This document shows positions 22,873 through 34,953 of a stretch of 64,000 bases of DNA, in pieces. Position 1 is the first letter of the stretch; each line of letters begins with the position of its first letter. Location: contig CP007051.1 of NCBI GenBank assembly GCA_000517565.1, forward strand, positions 1,279,949-1,343,948. The letters are read 5' to 3'. Source of the stretch: Desulfurella acetivorans A63. Lineage in GTDB: Bacteria > Campylobacterota_A > Desulfurellia > Desulfurellales > Desulfurellaceae. The translations under genes and the position numbers were made by a program. The notes beneath the pieces are model-generated. The model saw only the letters and a list, made by a program, of their open reading frames with translations, was not told the origin of the DNA and ran no database searches.

Positions 22873-23323
22873 TAAAACCACCGCTTTTGGTATAGTGGAC
22901 TGCTTAAATAAGACATTCGAATACGATTTTATTAGTTTACAAAAGATACAGAATTTTGATGATAAGTTATATGCAGTTTTTTTAAAAACTCAAGAAGTAA
23001 TAAAAAATCATAATATTAACGAAGCTGCGGTTGAGGATGTATTTTATTCTGTAAATATCAAATCATCTTTGAAGCTTAGCGAAATAAAAGGCGCTATACT
23101 TGCTGCAGTAAAGCTTTCTAATATTAATGTTGTTCATTATTCAACAAGAGAGATAAAACAAGCGATATCTGGTTACGGAGCTGCTTCAAAAACTCAGCTT
23201 AAATTTATCATTGAAAAAACATTTAATAAAAAATTAGATAATTTACCTCTTGATGTGTCTGATGCTATTTCTATTGCTTTAGCGCATTGCAGCTACAAGC
23301 ATACCGCAAGCCGCATTAATTGA
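22844..23323 (+). CDS. ruvC: Holliday junction resolvase RuvC
   Basis: 159 residues from ATG 22844, where the protein begins MIILGIDPGSKTTAFGIVD as RuvC does; the frame opens 42 bp earlier but that extension lies inside the previous gene. The acidic catalytic residues are at GIDPGS, AAVEDVFYS and PLDVSDAISIAL. RuvC nicks Holliday junctions symmetrically with RuvAB, which are not in the window. Its last 45 bp overlap the 3' end of rlmN on the opposite strand. Confidence 0.93.
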   Translation: MIILGIDPGSKTTAFGIVDCLNKTFEYDFISLQKIQNFDDKLYAVFLKTQEVIKNHNINEAAVEDVFYSVNIKSSLKLSEIKGAILAAVKLSNINVVHYSTREIKQAISGYGAASKTQLKFIIEKTFNKKLDNLPLDVSDAISIALAHCSYKHTASRIN

Positions 23324-24310
23324 TTCACCTTTAGATTTTCTAACAGTAACAAACATATTTTTATCTCTAAGGCGCTGAGCAAATTCTTCAATAGTTTTGT
23401 TGTCACTGGGTAATAGATTGTCTGTAAAGATGTGTTTGTTTAAAGGTATTAAATTTATTTTACACTTAATTGGTTTTAGCAATTTAATTAAATTTTTTAT
23501 GTCTTCTTGTTTATCATTAAAATCTTTAATCATTACATATTCAAACGTCAGTCTTTTTCGTTCCGGCACAGGAAAATCTTTTACACAGTTAATTAATTCT
23601 TCTATTGGATAAATGTTGTTTATAGGCATCAAATAACTCCGCTTAATGTTATCAGCTGCATTTAATGATATTGCAAGATTAATATAAGCTAAATCTTTTT
23701 TGAGCATTTCAATTTTTGGTATAACACCACAAGTTGATAGTGTTATGCGGCGTCTTGATATACTCAAGCCAAACTCGCTATTAAGTATTAAGATAGCCTT
23801 AATTGTATTATCATAATTATCAAGTGGCTCTCCCATACCCATAAATACTATATTTGGCGTTTTATGTGTTGTCTTTTTAATATAATTATAAATATACCAT
23901 ACTTGATAAACAATTTCCCATGCTTGTAAATTTCTAATAAATCCTAGCTTTGCGGTAGCACAAAATTTACAATTCATTTTACATCCTACTTGAGTAGAAA
24001 CACATATTGTGTTTTTACCTTCTTTCATGGGAATCAAAACAGATTCTACCGCTTGATTATCAAATAACTTAAACAAAAATTTTGTTGTACCATCAAAATC
24101 CTTTGTTGTAATACAATCAAGTTTTGGGATTAAAAATCTCTCACTTAAAAGTTTTCTGTCTATTTTTTTTAAAACACTGATATTTAAAAAGTCATCAAAA
24201 CCTTTAGCATATATAAAGCTAAATAGCTGTTTTGCTCTGTACTTTTCCAATCCTAAATTGGTAATATATTCTTCAAGTTCACTTAAAGTAAAATTAAAAA
24301 AGTTATACAT
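23279..24310 (-). CDS. rlmN: dual-specificity 23S rRNA A2503 / tRNA A37 methyltransferase RlmN
   Basis: 343 residues, radical SAM enzyme. The CxxxCxxC cluster motif is in CKMNCKFCATAKLG and the methyl-carrying cysteine near the C-terminus in NAACGMLVAA. The VFMGMGEPLDNYDN and RRRITLSTCGV blocks are standard for RlmN. It is the last gene of the chemotaxis operon strand (4 bp after cheY), but its role is ribosomal. Its end overlaps ruvC tail-to-tail. Confidence 0.95.
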   Translation of the reverse strand: MYNFFNFTLSELEEYITNLGLEKYRAKQLFSFIYAKGFDDFLNISVLKKIDRKLLSERFLIPKLDCITTKDFDGTTKFLFKLFDNQAVESVLIPMKEGKNTICVSTQVGCKMNCKFCATAKLGFIRNLQAWEIVYQVWYIYNYIKKTTHKTPNIVFMGMGEPLDNYDNTIKAILILNSEFGLSISRRRITLSTCGVIPKIEMLKKDLAYINLAISLNAADNIKRSYLMPINNIYPIEELINCVKDFPVPERKRLTFEYVMIKDFNDKQEDIKNLIKLLKPIKCKINLIPLNKHIFTDNLLPSDNKTIEEFAQRLRDKNMFVTVRKSKGESINAACGMLVAAMR

Positions 24311-24314
24311 TTTT

Positions 24315-24686
24315 CTATTTTAGCCCCATAATAACTTCTATTTTTTCTTTTAATACTTCTGGCGTAAATGGTTTTACTATATAATTGTTTACACCTGCTT
24401 TTAGTGCTTCAAGTATATCTTCTTTTGCAGCTTCTGTTGTAACCATAATTATAGGCACATCATCCCACTCTCTCATACTACGTATTTTTTTTACAAAGGT
24501 CAACCCATCCATATTTGGCATATTCCAATCAGTTATAATAAGATCAACTTTTGTTTGAGACAGTATACCCAATGCTTGCTTGCCATCTTCTGCTTCCAAC
24601 ACATCACTACCGAATCCTATACGAGATAGTGTATTTTTAATAATTCTTCTCATAGTAGAAGAATCATCAATTGTAATAATTTTCAT
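24315..24686 (-). CDS. cheY: chemotaxis response regulator CheY
   Basis: 123 residues, a single receiver domain. Acidic pocket IDDSS, phosphoacceptor Asp in DLIITDWNMPNMDG, Thr in VTTEA and Lys in IVKPF are all present. The TDWNMPNMDGL context is typical of true CheY, which binds the flagellar switch. The start overlaps the cheZ stop by 4 bp. Confidence 0.95.
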   Translation of the reverse strand: MKIITIDDSSTMRRIIKNTLSRIGFGSDVLEAEDGKQALGILSQTKVDLIITDWNMPNMDGLTFVKKIRSMREWDDVPIIMVTTEAAKEDILEALKAGVNNYIVKPFTPEVLKEKIEVIMGLK

Positions 24687-25396
24687 TTAATCTCCCCCTT
24701 TTGAAAACTCTTTACTATATCATCTACTTCTTTGTCAATCTGGTCTTTTTTAGATTCATCTACAATTGTTTTTGCTACGCGGGCTCTAATTTTTTTACCT
24801 GACGAAAACCAGTTATTTAAATACTCGTGTAAAGCTTGAATTACACTTATTACTTTTTCTATCTTTTGTCTTGTAATATCCTGAAATTGCAACAAATCCA
24901 TAGAATCAAATATGTAATTTTTTAATTCTTCATGTGTTGCTTGAATTTCATCAAAAATTTTTAAAACATTTGCAAAATACTCATAATTTTGTTTTACTGC
25001 TGCTTTTGGAAATGCGCTGATAAAAAGATCCATAAATTTTTTATGTTCGTCAAGGTAAGGTTTAATTTTTTTCAATTCCGCATCCATAGTATCAATTCTG
25101 CTTACTGCATTTTCAAGAAGCTCAAATAACTGGTTTACCTTTTCTTCACTTTCTCTTGTAATTTCATCAAGCTTGTCTACAACCCTATGGTCTTCCTGGG
25201 GATAAACCACCCCTTTTAGGTGTTCAATATTTTCCGACTCTTTTTGTTGAATTTCTATAGTTGGTTCTTCAAAAGTTTCTTTTTTAAGCGTATTTTGGTT
25301 ATTTTCTTCAAATCTATCCAAAATATTTTCTATATCTTCTTTTTTTGCTGAATTAAAACTGGCAAGCAATTTATCAATTTCGTCTTGAGTACTCAT
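24683..25396 (-). CDS. cheZ: CheZ-type CheY-P phosphatase with FliM-like N-terminal peptide
   Basis: 237 residues from ATG 25396 (TGGAGGGG site); four extra upstream codons are unlikely. Long helical central region with the CheZ catalytic motif QDITRQ (Asp173, Gln177). The C-terminal VDDIVKSF resembles the CheZ tail that binds CheY. Unusually, the N-terminus STQDEIDKLLASF looks like the CheY-binding peptide of FliM (SQDEIDxLL). The protein would therefore have CheY-docking sequences at both ends. It lies between cheX and cheY. Confidence 0.88.
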   Translation of the reverse strand: MSTQDEIDKLLASFNSAKKEDIENILDRFEENNQNTLKKETFEEPTIEIQQKESENIEHLKGVVYPQEDHRVVDKLDEITRESEEKVNQLFELLENAVSRIDTMDAELKKIKPYLDEHKKFMDLFISAFPKAAVKQNYEYFANVLKIFDEIQATHEELKNYIFDSMDLLQFQDITRQKIEKVISVIQALHEYLNNWFSSGKKIRARVAKTIVDESKKDQIDKEVDDIVKSFQKGEIK

Positions 25397-25411
25397 TTTC
25401 CCCTCCAATTT

Positions 25412-25885
25412 TTAAGCCTTTTTTAATGATGCTTGTATGGCAAAATTTCCAAGCTCAGTTTCAAATGGTATAACTATTGTAGGTATACCTTTGGCTGAGC
25501 TAATAGTATGTTCTTTACCTACAATAACATTTGGTATAGATATTTTAATATGAATTTTTTTCTCATAAAAGATCTTTTTCACTCTACCTGCTATAATATT
25601 TGTTAATTCACCTATTGCATCCCTTGTGTCTGAAGAAAGTCCAAGCACCTCTTCTCCAATAAATCTTGACACTACTTTTAATGCAGTTTGCTTGGGCAAA
25701 GAAAAAGCTATTGAGCCTATTGCCTCACCAGTTATTCCAATGATGCCACTTATGTCAAAAAGTGGTTCATCTGTTTGTTTCACGTATGGTTTTGATAATT
25801 TGGGTTCAACACCTACTATATCTTTAAAAATTTCTGTAGTAGCTAATATAAAAGGATTTATCCAATCTGCACTGATTGTTGACAT
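25412..25885 (-). CDS. cheX: CheX-type chemotaxis phosphatase
   Basis: 157 residues of the CheC/CheX/FliY family. The active-site ExxN helix is GELTN (Glu93, Asn96), followed by IIAGRVKK. The single ExxN motif and size favour CheX over CheC. It would dephosphorylate CheY-P. Located between cheV and cheZ, giving the operon two unrelated CheY-P phosphatases. Confidence 0.88.
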   Translation of the reverse strand: MSTISADWINPFILATTEIFKDIVGVEPKLSKPYVKQTDEPLFDISGIIGITGEAIGSIAFSLPKQTALKVVSRFIGEEVLGLSSDTRDAIGELTNIIAGRVKKIFYEKKIHIKISIPNVIVGKEHTISSAKGIPTIVIPFETELGNFAIQASLKKA

Positions 25886-25894
25886 TTTTAAAAC

Positions 25895-26866
25895 CTATTT
25901 AACATTGTTTGTAACAGCTCTTACAAACTCTTCTGCAATAAATTTTGTACAAAAATCATCAGCTCCTACAGATTTTGCTTTTGCTAAATTAGCACCCCCA
26001 GATAAAGATGTATTAACAACAACAGGCAAAGATTCAAATCTTGGGTCTTCTTTTATCTTTTTTGTCAGCGTAAAACCATCCATGTTTGGCATTTCCACAT
26101 CAGTAATCACCAAATCCACCATAGATTTAATATTTCCATTGGACGATTCATAAAGTGTATTTAAAAGCTCCCAGGCTTCCTGACCATCTTTTGTTTCGTA
26201 GAGTTTTTCTGTTATAGGTTTTATAGCTTCTTTTATAATCTTTCTTGCAATAGATGAATCATCTGCTATTAAAACATTGGCTTTTCTGGAAATTTTAACA
26301 TTTGACATATCTTTTTCTATTCTTTGTACATTTTCTGTTCCAAATATGCCAAGCTCCTCGCAAATTTTTTCAAAGTCAACAATTAAAAGTACTTTCTCTT
26401 TATCATCATCATCTATGTTGTTAATCGTTCCTATAATCTTATTTTCATAATGACTGGATAATACATCATTTGGTGGCTTTATATCACTCCAGGCAAATCT
26501 TCTTATTCTTTTTGCTTCATGTACTATAAATCCAACTGTTACATTATTAAAATTAGCTACGATAATCTTTTTGTTTTTAGTAATTGATGGATCTTGAGGT
26601 TCTTTTATATTTAGCCATTTAGCTAAATTAACAATTGGAATTACCTCTCCCCTTAAATTAATCATACCTTCTAATACATCAGATTTACCATGAATACTTA
26701 TTATTTCTTTTGGGTCTGGATATTTAATTATTTCTTTTATTTTTGCTACATTTATACCGTAAATGTTTTCTTTAATGTAGCCAGATCTATCTTCAAACAT
26801 TCTAAAATCAACAAACTCAACCCTGTTTTCACCTACTCTTAAAACTTCTTTCAATTCATCGTTCAT
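25895..26866 (-). CDS. cheV: CheV: CheW-receiver coupling protein
   Basis: 323 residues. CheW domain about 15-170 (GINVAKIKEIIKYPDPKE; GMINLRGEVIPIVNLAKWL), then a receiver domain about 195-320. The receiver has intact ADDSS, VITDVEMPNMDG, NTSLSG and CTKF pocket residues. Couples receptors to CheA and is tuned by phosphorylation, probably in adaptation since no CheR/CheB is present in this operon. Its start overlaps the cheW stop by 4 bp. Confidence 0.93.
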   Translation of the reverse strand: MNDELKEVLRVGENRVEFVDFRMFEDRSGYIKENIYGINVAKIKEIIKYPDPKEIISIHGKSDVLEGMINLRGEVIPIVNLAKWLNIKEPQDPSITKNKKIIVANFNNVTVGFIVHEAKRIRRFAWSDIKPPNDVLSSHYENKIIGTINNIDDDDKEKVLLIVDFEKICEELGIFGTENVQRIEKDMSNVKISRKANVLIADDSSIARKIIKEAIKPITEKLYETKDGQEAWELLNTLYESSNGNIKSMVDLVITDVEMPNMDGFTLTKKIKEDPRFESLPVVVNTSLSGGANLAKAKSVGADDFCTKFIAEEFVRAVTNNVK

Positions 26867-27315
26867 GACTTATACCCACCTTCTTTTAGTATGGTATTGA
26901 CATCAAGCAAAATAATCAAAGCTTCGTCGAGCTTGCCTACACCTTTGATATATTTTTGAACATTTTCATTTACAGTTTCTGGAGAGTTTTCTATATTTTG
27001 ATTGTTTATATGGTATATTTTTTTTATCCTATCTACGAGGAAACCCACAGTATTATCTTCAACAGAAACAACTATTATTCTGCTATCTTGTGTTATGTCT
27101 TTAAACTTATCAAAAAATTTTTTATTTAAATCAACTATAGGAATAATTTTACCTCTTAAATTTATAACTCCAAGTACAAAATCTAATGTATTTGGTATAA
27201 AAGTTATATTTATGGGCTTTATTATTTCTGAAACATTTAAAATATCTATACCGTATGTCTCATTTTCTAGATTAAATCCCACCGCTTGCGTATAATCTGA
27301 ATTAAAACTCTCCAT
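26863..27315 (-). CDS. cheW: chemotaxis coupling protein CheW
   Basis: 150 residues, single CheW SH3-like domain. It contains YGIDILNVSEIIKPINITFIP and GVINLRGKIIPIVDLNKKF, the two signature blocks. Links receptors to CheA. ATG follows GAGGTGAGC. It sits 10 bp after the MCP gene and overlaps cheV. Confidence 0.93.
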   Translation of the reverse strand: MESFNSDYTQAVGFNLENETYGIDILNVSEIIKPINITFIPNTLDFVLGVINLRGKIIPIVDLNKKFFDKFKDITQDSRIIVVSVEDNTVGFLVDRIKKIYHINNQNIENSPETVNENVQKYIKGVGKLDEALIILLDVNTILKEGGYKS

Positions 27316-27325
27316 TTAGCTCACC

Positions 27326-28186
27326 TCAAAATTTTATCATCTTTTCTATTTTTCTATTTACATCAACCATAGTAGTTATTACACGAACGATTTTTTCTAG
27401 TGCAGTATAAATAATATTTATCCTATAAGCCAAATCATCTACAACCTTTATTTGTTCACTTATTGCTAATGAGTTTTGGGCTAAAGCTTCGCCAATAGAA
27501 TTTGATTCTTTTTGAGATTGGCTAAACAAACTTGCAAATTCATTAAAATCATTTGCAAGCGTCTCTAAAAAATTGTTGACATTTTCTACATTTTCAACGG
27601 CTTCTTCTATTTTGCTGTTAAATGTATCAAGAATTTTATTAATATTTTTTGTCATATTATCTGTTTTTGTTGCAAGTTTTCTAATTTCATCTGCAACTAC
27701 TGCAAAGCCTTTACCAGCTTCACCAACACGTGCTGCTTCAATGGCAGCATTCAATGCAAGCAGGTTTGTTTGTGAAGCAATATCTGATATTGAACCAATT
27801 ACTTCACTAATTTTTTGTGATGAAATGCTTAAGTTTTTTATACTTTCTACAAATGCACTTAGGTTTTCTTTTTTTTCTGTTATATCTTTATTGCGTTCAT
27901 CTATTTTTACTTTTAACGCAACATTATTATTATTAAATTGTTCGAAATCAGTATTTATGGATAGTAAATGCTCTGTCATAGATTTCAAGTTGCCACTCAT
28001 TTCTTCTATCGATGCAGCAAACACGTTCATCTGATCTTTAATGCCTTTTACATCGCTGTGAATTATATTAAAACTACCTTCTGTAGAATTACTAAGAATC
28101 GAATCTTTAACTACACTTTTTGCAAGTTTTGCTATTGTTTGTTTCTCATTTAGCTTATCAATATTGATTAAATTGTTTTTTTTCAT
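27326..28186 (-). CDS. cytoplasmic methyl-accepting chemotaxis protein without sensor domain
   Basis: 286 residues from ATG 28186 (AAGGTGA 5-6 bp upstream); a GTG 9 bp earlier is possible. No membrane segment. Mostly coiled coil, with the MCP signalling hairpin tip around [20 protein letters not shown] and [20 protein letters not shown]. The N-terminal ~60 residues carry no recognisable sensor domain. The gene follows the diiron oxygen-sensor gene with overlapping codons (GTGA), so it probably takes its signal from that protein or from the Cache-HAMP protein of the same operon. Confidence 0.88.
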
Positions 28187-28191
28187 TGGAT

Positions 28192-28971
28192 TCACCTTGA
28201 TATTTCATCTATAATATCGCTTCCACATCTTAAAGATTCTAACCAGCTTAGAAATGTCTTAGCTTCTTCTTTTTTAAATATAGCACCATGTTGTGGAGCT
28301 ATCATATTTATATCATACTTTCTTATGCGATTGACAAAATTTTTACATACAGCATTTGATGCCATATAACGTTTATGGAAACCTTCCATTAAAGAAACAT
28401 GACTATCGAAGTTTTCCACAAAAAGATAGGTTTTGCTGCCAAAAACCGCAGCCCCTATGTCTCCACTAAAAAGTATCTTTGAAGCAGGATCATATAAAAC
28501 ATGCTGGCCTGGTGAGTGCATAAAATGTGCTGGTATTGCTTCAAATGAATCAATTTTACCTCCATTATCTTCAATGGGAATAATACGAGAAAAATCAGTT
28601 ATGCCAAAATGTGGCAAAAATCTAACCCAAAGTTTTGAAATATACACATTAGCGTTTGTTATAGAAAGCCACATTGCAATGCCACTTGAAACATCAGGAT
28701 CTTGATGAGTATAAAAGATATTCTTAATATCATTAAGATCAATATACCTGCTCACATTCGCAACAACTTTTGGGAATACGTGAACGCCACCTGGGTCAAG
28801 TAATGTTCCTTTGCCATTTGATATAATTAAATATTGATTAACCTGGATAAAGCCACCTTTTATATCAGATTCATCCCACCCAAGCCATATAAATTTATGA
28901 CCTGATTCTTCAAATAGTACTTCACCGTTTGATATATTTACCTGTTCGTTTGACAAATTGATATAACCCAT
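28192..28971 (-). CDS. oxygen-binding diiron protein (metallo-beta-lactamase fold), chemotaxis-linked ODP
   Basis: 259 residues. Metallo-beta-lactamase fold of the flavodiiron type without the flavodoxin domain. Metal ligands are visible as His89-x-Asp91-x-Asp93 (THQDPD), His152 (FMHSPG), Asp171 (FSGDIG) and His228 (PQHG). Such stand-alone diiron proteins were described in Treponema denticola as O2/Fe sensors linked to CheA signalling. Here the gene lies between cheA (2 bp upstream) and an MCP lacking its own sensor. Sensing O2 for aerotaxis or oxygen avoidance is the best inference; O2 or NO reduction is less likely without a flavin domain. Confidence 0.85.
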
Positions 28972-28973
28972 AA

Positions 28974-31397
28974 TTATACTCCTCCTTTTTTATCAGGATT
29001 TATTTTTTTGTTTAATAATTTCTTTATATTTTCTATATTTGACTTCTGATTTAAACCTATTAACGCATTCAAACTTGTATCTTCAAAACGGGATTTATCT
29101 GACTGTAAATCTTCACTTAAACCTACAATGTATGATTTTTTAGTTGCAGGAAGCTCTCTTATATCGTTTATTAAATCTATTGCATTTGGCATAGATAGAT
29201 CTAAAAAAACAATACTTGATGGGTGAGAATACAAGGAAGCAATATTATCACTAAAAAGTATATTGTACTCTGCAAAATTTTCTTTTATAAACATAAATTC
29301 TTCAAGATTAGCTTTATTTGAAATAACTAAAGCATTTTGCAAAAATTCTTTTTGATCTGCTGTATGAGAAGCTATATTAACGGATAATTTTGAAGCTTGC
29401 TTTACTATTGAAACTACGTCCAATATTAATGCAACGCTCCCATCGCCCATAATTGTTGCACCGGCAATTGATTTAACTTTACCTAAATAATTTCCAAGAG
29501 GTTTTATTACGACTTCTTCTTGGTTAACAAGTGCATCAACAACTAAACCTAACTGTTTTTCTGCAGATGAAACAATAACAACATATATCTCATCTTTATT
29601 TAGTGTTTTTTTGCCTTGAGATATTCTCAGTATATCACCCAAATAAACAAGTGGTACAATAGAACCTCTTAAGCGTAAAACATCCTTGTTTTGAACATGC
29701 TCAATATCTGATAATGCAATTCTTACGGTTTCTATAACATTTGCTAAAGGTATGGCAAATAGACTTCCTGCCACTTTAACAAGCAGTGACTGAATGATCG
29801 CCAATGTTAAAGGTATTTTTATAATTATTTTTGTGCCTATGTTTGGTTGTGATGTTATTGTTATAATGCCGTTTAGTTTTTCAATGTTTGTTTTTACAAC
29901 ATCCATACCAACTCCACGGCCAGAAATGCTCGAAACTTGATTTGCAGTAGAAAAACCTGGCAAAAAGACAAGATTAAAAATATCGTTTTCACTCATTAAA
30001 GATGCCTCTTGCTCTGTAATAATACCATTTTCTATGGCTTTTTGCTTGATTTTTTCTTTATCCATACCTCTGCCATCATCTTCTACACTAATTACTATAT
30101 GGTTTCCTTCCTGAGAAGCTGAAAGCTTTAAGGTCCCAATTTTATTTTTACCTTTTTGAATTCGCTCACTTGGAGATTCTATACCATGGTCAATTGCATT
30201 TCTAATTAAATGAACAAAGGGCTCATTAATTTCTTCTACAATACTTTTGTCAAGTTCTGTTTCGGCACCTTCTATAACAAGATTTACTTCTTTATTTAAA
30301 TCCCTGCAAATATCCCTTACAACCCTTGGAAATTTATTGAAAACTTTACCTATTTCAACCATTCTGGTTTTCATTATAGCCATTTGTAAATCAGTAGTAA
30401 CAAGCGTTATTTGAGACGAAATATTTGAAAGACTATCTGAAATATCGTCATTTTCATTTTGTTCTGAAACAATATTTGCAAGCCTTACAAGCCTGTTTTT
30501 TGCTAAAACCAACTCACCCGCCAAATCCATCAAATCATCTAACTTTTTAACATCCACCCTAATAGTTTGCTTGTCAAGGTCCTGTTTTGATTTATCCTGG
30601 GGCTCTTTATTGGACATGATTTTTTGAGATTCAACTTCTTCAACCTTGCTTTGTGTTAAGGTTTGCGTATCAATTCTTTCAGATTGTTTGCTGGTTTGAG
30701 TATCTTTTGTTTCTTGAGTTTTATTATTTTGTTGTTTAGCTTTCCTTCGTTCTTTATCTTCTTTTATTCTTTGTTCTAAAAGTTTTTGAATTTCAGCATT
30801 GAGTTCTTCGTCCGTTAAATTTGTTTTTTTGGCTGGCACAGGTTCTTCTTGAATCTCTTCTATTTGAAGTTTAATTATATCATTTTCGCTTTCAATAACA
30901 GATTCTTGCACTTGTTCTTGAAGTTCTTTGGATTCTTGAGGTTGTGAAGGTTCTTCAATAAGTTTTTCTTCAGAGTCTTTTTGTATTGTATCTATCTGGC
31001 TTGGTTTATTTTGGGCTTTTAATAGTTTATGTATTTCTTGCTCTATATCTATATCATCAATGGATTGGTTTTGTTTTATTGCTTCAAGCATTGCCTTGAG
31101 TTTGTCAACACTCATTAGTATTGCATCCATAATTGATGGTGTTAATTCTAACTCAAAGCGTCTAAGAGAATTCAATAAATCTTCAAGCTTGTGCGTAAGT
31201 TCAGTCATCTTTTCAAAACCTAAAAAGCTTGAAGAACCTTTTATTGTATGAAACGCCCTAAAAACTTTGTTTAACAAATCTGCATCTGTCGGTGATTTTT
31301 CAAGTGCTACCAAATCTTCATCAAGACCTTCTAAGAGTTCTTCTGTTTCAACAACAAAATCTTTTAATATTTCATCCATTTCATTAAAACTACTCAT
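28974..31397 (-). CDS. cheA: chemotaxis histidine kinase CheA with C-terminal receiver-like domain
   Basis: 807 residues from ATG 31397 (AAGGAGAATGAAA upstream). Hpt domain with His50 (AFHTIKGSSSF). A Gln/Glu/Lys-rich low-complexity linker (about 125-280) occupies the place where a P2 domain normally sits. Then dimerisation, ATPase (EPFVHLIRNAIDHGIE, GRGVGMDVVKTNIEK) and CheW-like domains. The last ~120 residues resemble a receiver: FLDLSMPNAID keeps the Asp but the acidic pair is lost (VISNK) and the Lys loop is altered. It is therefore a degenerate version of the CheA-receiver fusion common in Campylobacterota. Confidence 0.93.
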   Translation of the reverse strand: MSSFNEMDEILKDFVVETEELLEGLDEDLVALEKSPTDADLLNKVFRAFHTIKGSSSFLGFEKMTELTHKLEDLLNSLRRFELELTPSIMDAILMSVDKLKAMLEAIKQNQSIDDIDIEQEIHKLLKAQNKPSQIDTIQKDSEEKLIEEPSQPQESKELQEQVQESVIESENDIIKLQIEEIQEEPVPAKKTNLTDEELNAEIQKLLEQRIKEDKERRKAKQQNNKTQETKDTQTSKQSERIDTQTLTQSKVEEVESQKIMSNKEPQDKSKQDLDKQTIRVDVKKLDDLMDLAGELVLAKNRLVRLANIVSEQNENDDISDSLSNISSQITLVTTDLQMAIMKTRMVEIGKVFNKFPRVVRDICRDLNKEVNLVIEGAETELDKSIVEEINEPFVHLIRNAIDHGIESPSERIQKGKNKIGTLKLSASQEGNHIVISVEDDGRGMDKEKIKQKAIENGIITEQEASLMSENDIFNLVFLPGFSTANQVSSISGRGVGMDVVKTNIEKLNGIITITSQPNIGTKIIIKIPLTLAIIQSLLVKVAGSLFAIPLANVIETVRIALSDIEHVQNKDVLRLRGSIVPLVYLGDILRISQGKKTLNKDEIYVVIVSSAEKQLGLVVDALVNQEEVVIKPLGNYLGKVKSIAGATIMGDGSVALILDVVSIVKQASKLSVNIASHTADQKEFLQNALVISNKANLEEFMFIKENFAEYNILFSDNIASLYSHPSSIVFLDLSMPNAIDLINDIRELPATKKSYIVGLSEDLQSDKSRFEDTSLNALIGLNQKSNIENIKKLLNKKINPDKKGGV

Positions 31398-32580
31398 TTT
31401 CATTCTCCTTTTTAATGTTAATATCACCTAAGTTAGCAAGTGTTTGAGCTAAAGCATCCATTAAATTATTTACAGATTTAACCAATTCACCTAGTTCATC
31501 ATTGCTTTCGTATGTTATGCGTTTTGATACATCTCCCATGATAATTGAGTTAATTGTATTTGTAGCATCCAAAATTGGCTTTACTATTTTATTTGATGCC
31601 CACATACTGAAAAACAATGCTATCAAAATTGTAATTACACTAAAAAAAGAAAAAATTCCAAGCATCAAAATCGTTTTTGAGTTGATTTGTTTATTAAGTC
31701 TAGTAACATCTTCCATTAGACTATTGATTGGTAATGTTAAGCCTAATCCCCACCCCGTTTTAGGTATTGAAGTATATCCAACGTATTTTTCAACACCACG
31801 AAATGTATAAGAAGATGTACCGGTTTTTCCTTTTAAAATAAAATTTCTCATTAAATATGCTAATTTATCTCCATTTTCAGGGTTTGTTAAATCTACATGG
31901 TCTTTCAACGTAATAAGAGGATGTTCTTTAACCTTTGGATCAAACACAAGCACACCTTTATGGTCTGTCATCCATAGATATTTATCACTCATAGGTCTAA
32001 TTTGTGCACTTTGCAAAATAGAAAATATACCTGAAGGATCTATTTCAAAAAGAATATATCCTTCATCTTTAAATGGAAATAAAAAAGAAAAGTAAGCATT
32101 TTTATCTTTCTCTAAATAAAAATCGACAAAGTAATCATTATTTGAAAACCTTTTATATTCTCCTGCTTTAATTTGATTGATAGCGCCTTCAAAAGTTGCA
32201 CCTTTTGGATATGAATAAATAATAGAAAAATTTTTATCTAACATAGCTATACCTTTTATATTTAAATCTCTACTTGTCACAGTATAAATATTTGGTATGT
32301 ATTTTGTCGGATCTTTTGCGTTTGACAAAAAATTAACAGTAGAAGCACACATTTTTTCTTTTATATTTAAATTTGCTTCTATAATCCTTGCATAACTTTT
32401 AACTTCATCTTCAAGATAATGATTTGCTTGTATTGCAAAAACATTCTTGCTTGAGTTTATAAAAAAGCTTCGAAGAGAAAAGAGGTTATATAATGAAATT
32501 AAACTAAAAAGTACAGAAACTATAAGCATTATAGAAAAAGTATATGCTACTATTTTTGTTTTTATACTTCTTTTAAACAA
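31390..32580 (-). CDS. membrane Cache-HAMP sensor lacking any output domain
   Basis: 396 residues. TM1 about 10-30, extracytoplasmic Cache-type ligand domain about 40-290 (PNIYTVTSRDLNIKGIAMLD; KYLWMTDHKGVLVFDP; VGYTSIPKTGWGLGL), TM2 about 300-330, then a HAMP domain (KIVKPILDATNTINSIIMGD, YESNDELGELVKSVNNLMD). It ends ~20 residues after HAMP, with no MCP, kinase or GGDEF domain. The start is TTG at 32580 with AGAGG upstream, overlapping the histidine kinase stop; its stop overlaps cheA by 8 bp. It looks like the sensor half of a chemoreceptor whose signalling half could be the MCP at 27326-28186. Confidence 0.85.
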   Translation of the reverse strand: MFKRSIKTKIVAYTFSIMLIVSVLFSLISLYNLFSLRSFFINSSKNVFAIQANHYLEDEVKSYARIIEANLNIKEKMCASTVNFLSNAKDPTKYIPNIYTVTSRDLNIKGIAMLDKNFSIIYSYPKGATFEGAINQIKAGEYKRFSNNDYFVDFYLEKDKNAYFSFLFPFKDEGYILFEIDPSGIFSILQSAQIRPMSDKYLWMTDHKGVLVFDPKVKEHPLITLKDHVDLTNPENGDKLAYLMRNFILKGKTGTSSYTFRGVEKYVGYTSIPKTGWGLGLTLPINSLMEDVTRLNKQINSKTILMLGIFSFFSVITILIALFFSMWASNKIVKPILDATNTINSIIMGDVSKRITYESNDELGELVKSVNNLMDALAQTLANLGDINIKKENENE

Positions 32581-33607
32581 CGCTTAACCTCTGTATGCGC
32601 ATTCTCGAGCGCTTTTCTATTGGTAAAATTAACTTTACAGTTGTTGTATTATTGCGTGATATTATACGCAGTCTACCTTTGTGAGCTTGTACTATTAGTT
32701 TTGATATAAATAAACCCAAACCTACATTTTTGGGTTTTGTGGAATAAAACGGTGTAAATAACATGCTTAGTCTTTCTTTATCAATTCCACCGCCATTATC
32801 TTTTATGCTGATTATAATATTATTGTCTTCTTTTTGACAAGACATAAAAATATTACCTTTTTCTTCAATTGATTCATAAGCATTTTTTAAAATTTCTTCT
32901 AAAACTAAACCAAAAAGTTTTTTATCCAAAAAAAGACTACTATTACAATTAAAATTATAACTATAATCAATAAACTTTGCGGTATTTTCTTTCCTAAAAT
33001 TCTCAAAAGCACTATTTAAAAATTCATCAATACTAACTTTTTCTAATTTTAATTCAGAAGCATTGTTTATTATTTCAATATCAAGTACAACTTTCATTAT
33101 TTTTGAAAACTCATTCTGTATGGATTCAATATAAGGCTCAATCTCTTTCTTTAAATCATTTGGTAATTTCTTTTTGATAAGGTTTAAAAAACCACTTATT
33201 GACATTATAGGATTTCTTAGAACATGTGCAATACCTTGAGAAATATATTTTAAATAACTATAATTAAGATTTTTTTGACTTAAACTAAGTTTACTAAATC
33301 CTGAAAGAACTATTATTTCAAAAACAAAAAACTCACTATTTTTAAAAACATTAATATAACAAAACTGTATCTTTTCATTCTTATCAATAAAGCGTATAAA
33401 GTTTTTATATGTACCTTCTTTATTTAATACATCTAATAAATTTTCAAAAAATATTTTTCGATCATCAGGTTGAAAAATATTTCTCACATCATCGTCAACC
33501 TTGATATTGAAACGCTCCTTAGCTTTAGCATTTGAGTACACAACTTTATTATTTTTATCAAAAACTACTATACAGCTTTCAAGAAAATCAAAAATCTCTA
33601 CATTCAC
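32573..33607 (-). CDS. soluble PAS-type sensor histidine kinase
   Basis: 344 residues, no membrane segment. N-terminal PAS-like domain about 5-100 (VVFDKNNKVVYSNAKAKERF). Phospho-accepting helix with His128 in GIAHVLRNPIMSISGF, and an ATPase domain with the N box EEILKNAYESIEE, DNGGGI and GLGLFISKLIVQAH. It is the first gene of the chemotaxis operon, directly ahead of the Cache-HAMP protein that has no output domain. No dedicated response regulator is adjacent apart from CheV and CheY. Confidence 0.88.
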   Translation of the reverse strand: MNVEIFDFLESCIVVFDKNNKVVYSNAKAKERFNIKVDDDVRNIFQPDDRKIFFENLLDVLNKEGTYKNFIRFIDKNEKIQFCYINVFKNSEFFVFEIIVLSGFSKLSLSQKNLNYSYLKYISQGIAHVLRNPIMSISGFLNLIKKKLPNDLKKEIEPYIESIQNEFSKIMKVVLDIEIINNASELKLEKVSIDEFLNSAFENFRKENTAKFIDYSYNFNCNSSLFLDKKLFGLVLEEILKNAYESIEEKGNIFMSCQKEDNNIIISIKDNGGGIDKERLSMLFTPFYSTKPKNVGLGLFISKLIVQAHKGRLRIISRNNTTTVKLILPIEKRSRMRIQRLSVV

Positions 33608-33636
33608 ATAACAATCCTCTTGCTTTGACTAAATTC

Positions 33637-33665
33637 AATATACCATAATTTTACTCATTTATCAA
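33637..33665 (-). promoter_or_regulatory. sigma-70 promoter of the chemotaxis operon, partly inside purB
   Basis: Minus strand TTGATA (plus 33660-33665), 17-bp spacer, TATATT (plus 33637-33642), about 30 bp before the kinase ATG. The -35 box lies in the last codons of purB. Confidence 0.6.
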
Positions 33666-34953
33666 ATACTCTTTTGAATATTTTATCAATATTTCTTATA
33701 AAATAAGTATAATCAAAACATTCATTAAGTTCTTTTTCGGATAAATATTTACCAATTATTTCATTTTTAGCTAAAAGTAATTTATAATCCACCTTATTGT
33801 TCCACGATTCAAATGCCAAACTTTGTGTAATTTTATAAGCAGTTTCTTTATCAAGACCTTTTTCAATTAGCTTTAGCATTACCCTTTGAGAATATATCAC
33901 ACCTCTTGTTAGGTTAAGGTTTTCAAACATTTTTTCTTTATACACAACCAGATTAGACAAAATATTGTTCAGTCTATTTAGCATAAAATCAATTGCTATA
34001 CTTGAATCTGGCAAAATTATTCGCTCATTTGATGAGTGACTGATATCGCGCTCATGCCATAAAGCCACATTTTCAAGAGCGCATAAAGCGTTTGATCTAA
34101 CAAGCCTTGCAAGACCGTCTAAGTTTTCACTCAATACCGGGTTTCTTTTGTGCGGCATACTTGAAGAACCCTTCTGACCACCATGAAAGTACTCTTCTGC
34201 TTCTTGAACTTCCGTTCTTTGATAATGTCTAATTTGTAAAGCAATTTTTTCAATAGTCGCTGCAATTATAGCAAGGGTAGTCATATACTGGGCATATCTA
34301 TCCCTTTGTATTATTTGGTTAGAGATTGGATCCGGCTTTAGCCCCAAAATTTCACAAGCACGCTCTTCTACTTTTATATCAACATTTGCAAATGTCCCCA
34401 TAGAACCAGAAATTTTGCCGTATGAGACTATTTGTTTTGCTTGTTCTACTCTTTGCAAGTTTCTCTTCATTTCTTCATACCAAAGCGCAATTACAAACCC
34501 AAATGTAATAGGTTCTGCATGTATACCATGAGAGCGGCCAATCATTGGTGTATCTTTAAATTCAAATGCCCTTTTTTTAAGTGTTTCAAGTAATTGTTTA
34601 ATATCATCAATTATAATCTCGCATGAACGTTTTAAAAGTAAAGCATTTGCGGTATCAACTATGTCTGACGATGTAACACCATAGTGTAAAAAACTGCCTT
34701 CTTGAGGTATCAAATACTCTCTGACATTTTCATTGAAAGCTACAATATCATGACGTGTAATTTCTTCTATTTCTTTAATGCGTTTTACATCAAATTTTGC
34801 CTTTTTTCTAACGCTTTGGGTTATACCAGCTGGGATTGTACCCATTTCTTCATGAGCTTGCATAATTGCTAGTTCTACTTCAAGCCACTTTTGGTATTTA
34901 TTTTCCAGCGTCCAAACATCTCCCATGATTTTTCTTGTATATCGCTCTATCAT
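33655..34953 (-). CDS. purB: adenylosuccinate lyase
   Basis: 432 residues from ATG 34953 (GAGG 5 bp upstream; a GTG 6 bp earlier overlaps it). Signature SSMPHKRNP and the HGVTSSDIVDTANALL and GRSHGIHAEPITFG catalytic blocks are intact. Acts twice in purine synthesis, on SAICAR and adenylosuccinate. Lies 7 bp after rodA. Its 3' end carries the -35 of the chemotaxis promoter. Confidence 0.95.
   Translation of the reverse strand: MIERYTRKIMGDVWTLENKYQKWLEVELAIMQAHEEMGTIPAGITQSVRKKAKFDVKRIKEIEEITRHDIVAFNENVREYLIPQEGSFLHYGVTSSDIVDTANALLLKRSCEIIIDDIKQLLETLKKRAFEFKDTPMIGRSHGIHAEPITFGFVIALWYEEMKRNLQRVEQAKQIVSYGKISGSMGTFANVDIKVEERACEILGLKPDPISNQIIQRDRYAQYMTTLAIIAATIEKIALQIRHYQRTEVQEAEEYFHGGQKGSSSMPHKRNPVLSENLDGLARLVRSNALCALENVALWHERDISHSSNERIILPDSSIAIDFMLNRLNNILSNLVVYKEKMFENLNLTRGVIYSQRVMLKLIEKGLDKETAYKITQSLAFESWNNKVDYKLLLAKNEIIGKYLSEKELNECFDYTYFIRNIDKIFKRVFDK

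Follow-up and report, generated by a model that had tools for sequence, protein, structure and literature searches.

ODP proteins reportedly occur in eight phyla, and in their iron-peroxo form they are said to destabilize phospho-CheA, according to the abstract of the 2019 study of the family. This PNAS work is taken up in passages of PMC7319448, PMC7666581, PMC6978683, and PMC9665402, and PMC10653840 cites it without further description. As described in passages of PMC7319448, the 2019 study reported that signaling systems of bacteria and archaea have recruited ODPs: two groups, from two orders, share operons with MCP genes, others share operons with other signaling genes, and fusions also occur. 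In Treponema denticola, ODP is an oxygen sensor whose genetically coupled MCP can modulate CheA, and deletion of ODP alters the ordering of CheA in the arrays (both from passages of PMC7666581). The main text of PMC9321776, on the chemosensory systems of Campylobacterota, contains neither Desulfurella nor Hippea, and at the level of titles and abstract beginnings we found nothing in the literature on the ODP-containing chemotaxis operon described here.

This operon lies in a 64,000-nucleotide stretch of Desulfurella acetivorans A63 DNA (the window). A first-pass annotation had placed a diiron sensor gene at 28192-28971, and we confirmed an open reading frame (ORF) there, on the minus strand, with its ATG at 28971 and its stop codon at 28194-28192. 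The operon is listed below in minus-strand order, beginning with the histidine kinase gene and ending with cheY; intergenic distances range from -38 to +10 nt. A second ODP gene of the same genome is added at the end.

32573..33607, minus strand: histidine kinase (HisKA and HATPase_c by Pfam), with an 8-bp overlap with the dCache-HAMP gene
31390..32580, minus strand: dCache-HAMP membrane protein lacking an output domain, encoded upstream of cheA
28974..31427, minus strand: cheA, 817 aa from a GTG (Hpt, H-kinase_dim, HATPase_c, and CheW)
28192..28971, minus strand: ODP, 259 aa, stand-alone diiron sensor of the metallo-beta-lactamase fold (ORF, Pfam, PDB sequence matches, ligands, and Foldseek)
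27326..28186, minus strand: sensorless cytoplasmic MCP (Pfam MCPsignal, E = 1.5e-32; no predicted transmembrane [TM] span; start placed by the conserved junction)
26863..27315, minus strand: cheW (Pfam, E = 3.1e-38)
25895..26866, minus strand: cheV (CheW plus receiver, by Pfam)
25412..25885, minus strand: cheX (Pfam, E = 1e-23)
24683..25408, minus strand: CheZ-like gene (Pfam CheZ, E = 1.6e-5)
24315..24686, minus strand: cheY (Pfam Response_reg, E = 5.8e-32)
outside the window (L014 8142-8915; G000:C1:1350638-1351372): second ODP

As the annotation had stated, ODP sits between cheA, immediately upstream with a 2-nt gap, and a sensorless MCP, immediately downstream. This MCP has a full signaling domain; no sensor domain was recognized in it, and no membrane span was predicted. 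Alternative internal ATG starts of cheA are possible near 31403 and 31397, and the CheZ-like label is tentative because its E value falls below the curated cutoff. A promoter and terminator scan of positions 23200 to 34000 yielded chance-level numbers only. The genome (1.82 Mb; completeness, 100) encodes one CheA (a single PF02895 match), one CheR match, and eight MCPs over the cutoff, and its CheW domains are confined to this operon. Beyond residue 677, after the CheW domain, CheA has no Pfam match and resembles, by eye, a degenerate receiver domain. Three of the eight MCPs carry the signaling domain in the middle of the protein, followed by a long C-terminal stretch (L187 1995-3692, L188 2718-4394, and L016 207-1853); the stretch in L187, the one of the three tested, has no Pfam match.

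Judged by its sequence, the product of 28192-28971 is an ODP, a member of a known family of diiron O2/Fe(II) chemotaxis sensors. The 259-aa ORF matched PF19583 (ODP; E = 6.9e-75; 251.6 bits against a cutoff of 27.2) and PF00753 (Lactamase_B; E = 2.8e-19), values that rule out chance matches. PF19583 also exceeds its cutoff on flavodiiron-like frames of about 400 aa, so the assignment is carried by PDB and tree evidence. The best PDB sequence matches were the ODP entries 6qrq/6qwo (E = 2.1e-96) and 6qnm/6r9n (E = 2.8e-92), with flavodiiron proteins far behind (E = 6e-8 and weaker). In a ColabFold model built from 31 aligned relatives (pLDDT, 91.7), the predicted fold resembled ODP structures more closely than flavodiiron proteins. 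Among the 50 Foldseek matches listed, T. maritima and T. denticola ODP chains took all of the top 10 places, including the peroxy-diiron form 6r9n (TMq, 0.82 to 0.90; 53 to 57% identity; 1.2 to 2.4 Å), and flavodiiron proteins came next (TMq, about 0.7; about 20% identity).

The annotation had described a full set of metal ligands, and the alignments bear this out: the pattern H-x-D-x-D, H, D, H is present as H89, D91, D93, H152, D171, and H228. On the basis of ODP and flavodiiron structures, these six residues are taken to bind the metals. All six are identical in the aligned entries 6qrq/6qwo and 6qnm/6r9n. Together with H149, they were also conserved without exception among the 104 ODP ORFs compared (98 distinct sequences, with some places fetched twice), a count that is partly due to ascertainment because one search seed contained the motif HQDPD. 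By analogy, we infer both the identity of the metal and the binding of O2. Since the same ligands serve iron and O2, and the title of the 2019 ODP paper names Fe(II) beside oxygen as a signal, the protein could instead sense ferrous iron or metal load, with metal occupancy as the switch acting on the MCP. The ODP crystal entries include the peroxy-diiron form, and we regard sensing of iron in place of O2 as doubtful.

Two enzymatic identities were rejected. A flavodiiron enzyme would carry a C-terminal flavodoxin domain and an H-x-E-x-D motif; by Pfam, the protein has no second domain, flavodoxin included, and it has Asp in place of Glu. A beta-lactamase-like hydrolase was dismissed because the Lactamase_B match reflects the fold alone. 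The two flavodiiron-like proteins of the same genome have Glu at the position of Asp 91, His or Tyr at Val 94, and Pro at His 149, differences that mark the protein as an ODP rather than a flavodiiron protein. A broader possibility is a protective enzyme (scavenging O2 or NO, or a hydrolase) that is merely cotranscribed with the chemotaxis genes. Flavodiiron proteins are indeed among its relatives, and flavodiiron-like genes lie elsewhere in the same organism. However, the short length without flavodoxin, the exchanged Glu ligand, and the pairing of ODP with a membrane-free MCP across eight phyla make such a role very unlikely.

Pfam, TM prediction, and the gene junction link ODP to the sensorless MCP. 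We infer that this MCP is the cognate receptor of ODP and that the two proteins are in direct contact. The annotation had described start codons that overlap the MCP gene. A GTG at 28195 that overlaps the ODP stop codon (GTGA) does exist and would give an MCP of 289 aa. In 10 of 10 ODP-MCP junctions compared (from at least three genera), however, an ATG lies a few bases past the ODP stop, on which a Shine-Dalgarno-like stretch sits (AGGTGA, GGGTGA, or GGGTAA). The MCP therefore more likely starts at ATG 28186 (286 aa), an arrangement that suggests translational coupling of the two genes and not a clear overlap. With respect to the heptad length class, MAFFT and profile-profile alignments of the sensorless MCP with the seven other MCPs of the genome placed the gaps inconsistently.

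A contig search confirmed 207 ODP loci. We kept the best 80 of these, and the sample therefore leans to close relatives. Gene calling gave 84 ODP ORFs in 77 of the 80 loci (none in L111, L120, or L130). A short MCP followed 55 of the 84; the tip motif identified 49 of these MCPs, and phmmer labels identified another 6, of which 2 are truncated at a contig end. A tree was built from 93 ODPs, and several of its deep branches are weak. One clade has 64 rows, of which 61 are MCP-paired proteins. This clade spans eight phyla (Campylobacterota, Nitrospirota, Aquificota, Thermotogota, Synergistota, Spirochaetota, Thermodesulfobacteriota, and Calescibacteriota). Pairing is thus not confined to spirochaetes, and a T. 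maritima ODP is itself among the solved structures. The annotation had suggested a wider O2-avoidance device in anaerobes; the extent of the clade agrees with this, but the idea is not new, since ODP-MCP pairs in bacteria and archaea had already been surveyed (passages of PMC7319448).

ODP and MCP distances were correlated over 59 pairs (r = 0.884; maximum of 1,000 permutations, 0.128), a value inflated by common ancestry. Contrasting two pairs within one metagenome-assembled genome (MAG) is the better test, available in few genomes. L089 and L104, two pairs from one MAG, are 62% identical in ODP and 24% identical in MCP. For L089 and its counterpart in another MAG, L094, the corresponding values are 96% and 91%. 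In the Aquificales MAGs with two pairs, each MCP tracks its own ODP, not the genome.

The nearest named relatives of our ODP are in Hippea and Desulfurellales MAGs (62 to 64% identity). The second ODP of the same genome is 44% identical, has the full ligand set, and lacks a chemotaxis neighbor; the ODP fold alone therefore does not imply chemotaxis. In the tree, it belongs to a separate clade, together with Aquificaceae ODPs that are not paired with an MCP. No strong ODP match was found in two CheA-bearing genomes of the same order, G003 and G015, both incomplete, which held flavodiiron-like frames of about 400 aa alone, plus one weak ODP hit in G015.

Other ODP contexts appeared in the same loci. 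ODP and GGDEF-type stretches share one 582-aa frame in the sister-family loci L064 and L066 (genomes G004 and G017) and were called as separate frames, 64 bases apart, in L065. Seven Oceanospirillaceae loci (L119, L121, L123, L125, L128, L131, and L134) have two tandem ODP genes followed by a gene of 395 to 401 aa. That gene encodes an HD_5 domain in L119 (the only locus tested), and the arrangement is a possible link from oxygen to c-di-GMP. In Aquificaceae, an ODP lies directly upstream of a SCO1/SenC gene (L144 5423-6013 and L145 1917-2501).

We compared the position of the pair with other CheA loci of the phylum. The survey gave 19 CheA matches in 18 of 25 genomes: 3 from the source genus, 15 fetched with flanks, and 1, in G012, not fetched at length. 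All three genomes of the source genus have the same operon, with the ODP-MCP pair between cheA and cheW. Among the genes displayed around the 15 other loci, none beside cheA was labeled ODP. Thirteen of them have the order histidine kinase, dCache-HAMP, cheA, cheW, cheV, cheX, (CheZ-like), and cheY, with cheA adjoining cheW (the CheZ-like gene is unlabeled in one). In the sister family (Hippea type), the pair is placed away from cheA. The simplest reading of these gene orders is that the core operon gained the pair by insertion in the lineage leading to the source genus. A linkage of ODP to cheA unique to this genus was ruled out by a Nitrospirota operon, cheA-cheW-MCP-MCP-ODP-cheR (L083). The position in the main chemotaxis cluster is unusual, not unique. 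With ODP and its MCP located between cheA and cheW, expression of the two is probably coupled to expression of the core kinase.

The dCache-HAMP protein stops just after HAMP and is in the same operon in all three genomes. It could therefore be one half of a split receptor, the membrane protein mainly driving the sensorless MCP and ODP modulating. Yet it is equally placed in 13 of the 15 other CheA loci, in operons without an MCP label, and its gene is also kept by three members of the class that gave no CheA match; we find a split receptor highly improbable. Two of these CheA-less members were looked at, and in the one tested with Pfam, a Roadblock/LC7 gene adjoins the dCache-HAMP gene.

Our main reading is that ODP is an O2/Fe(II) chemotaxis sensor that acts through its coupled MCP on the single CheA (probability, roughly 0.85). 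It builds on what was observed: the family, fold, and ligands, the gene coupling and co-inheritance with the MCP, and the single CheA. The first-pass description, a diiron oxygen sensor within a chemotaxis operon, likewise has good support from the family, the structure, the ligands, and the neighboring genes, with O2 binding resting on analogy. The proposed mechanism follows that of T. denticola. In it, the reduced diiron site would bind O2 as a stable peroxo adduct, whereupon ODP would change shape and act on the translationally coupled, sensorless cytoplasmic MCP. The MCP, joined to receptor arrays, would alter how the single CheA of the genome autophosphorylates or how stable phospho-CheA is, and the change would pass through CheY-P to flagellar switching. 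The direction of the oxygen response, avoidance or attraction, would likewise be read from that analogy. A long shot is that oxygen sensing has become a core part of the chemotaxis machine in the source genus and not an accessory input: co-expressed with the only CheA, ODP-MCP may set its activity in every array, and the outputless dCache-HAMP protein may be a second, extracellular input on the same MCP.

The operon extends a described oxygen/iron chemotaxis sensor to a Desulfurella-like lineage and adds no new class of system. It is a naturally simple arrangement, with one CheA and one ODP-MCP pair in the same operon, and would suit the rebuilding of ODP-MCP-CheA signaling. Flavodiiron proteins (e.g., T. 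maritima TM0755, 1vme) share the metallo-beta-lactamase diiron domain with ODP; ODP differs in lacking flavodoxin and in having Asp for Glu at the second ligand and Val for His/Tyr after DxD. The ODPs of T. maritima and T. denticola (6qrq, 6qwo, 6qnm, and 6r9n; PF19583) share fold, length, ligands, and the stand-alone form with the ODP described here, at structure-alignment identities of 56 to 57% and 53 to 54%, respectively. T. denticola ODP likewise has a coupled MCP that lacks membrane and sensing modules (passages of PMC7666581). The Hippea-type pairs away from cheA are orthologous to this pair, with ODP identities of 62 to 66%. Unlike the ODPs of T. maritima and T. denticola, the Desulfurella ODP, with its MCP, lies inside the core cheA-cheW operon.
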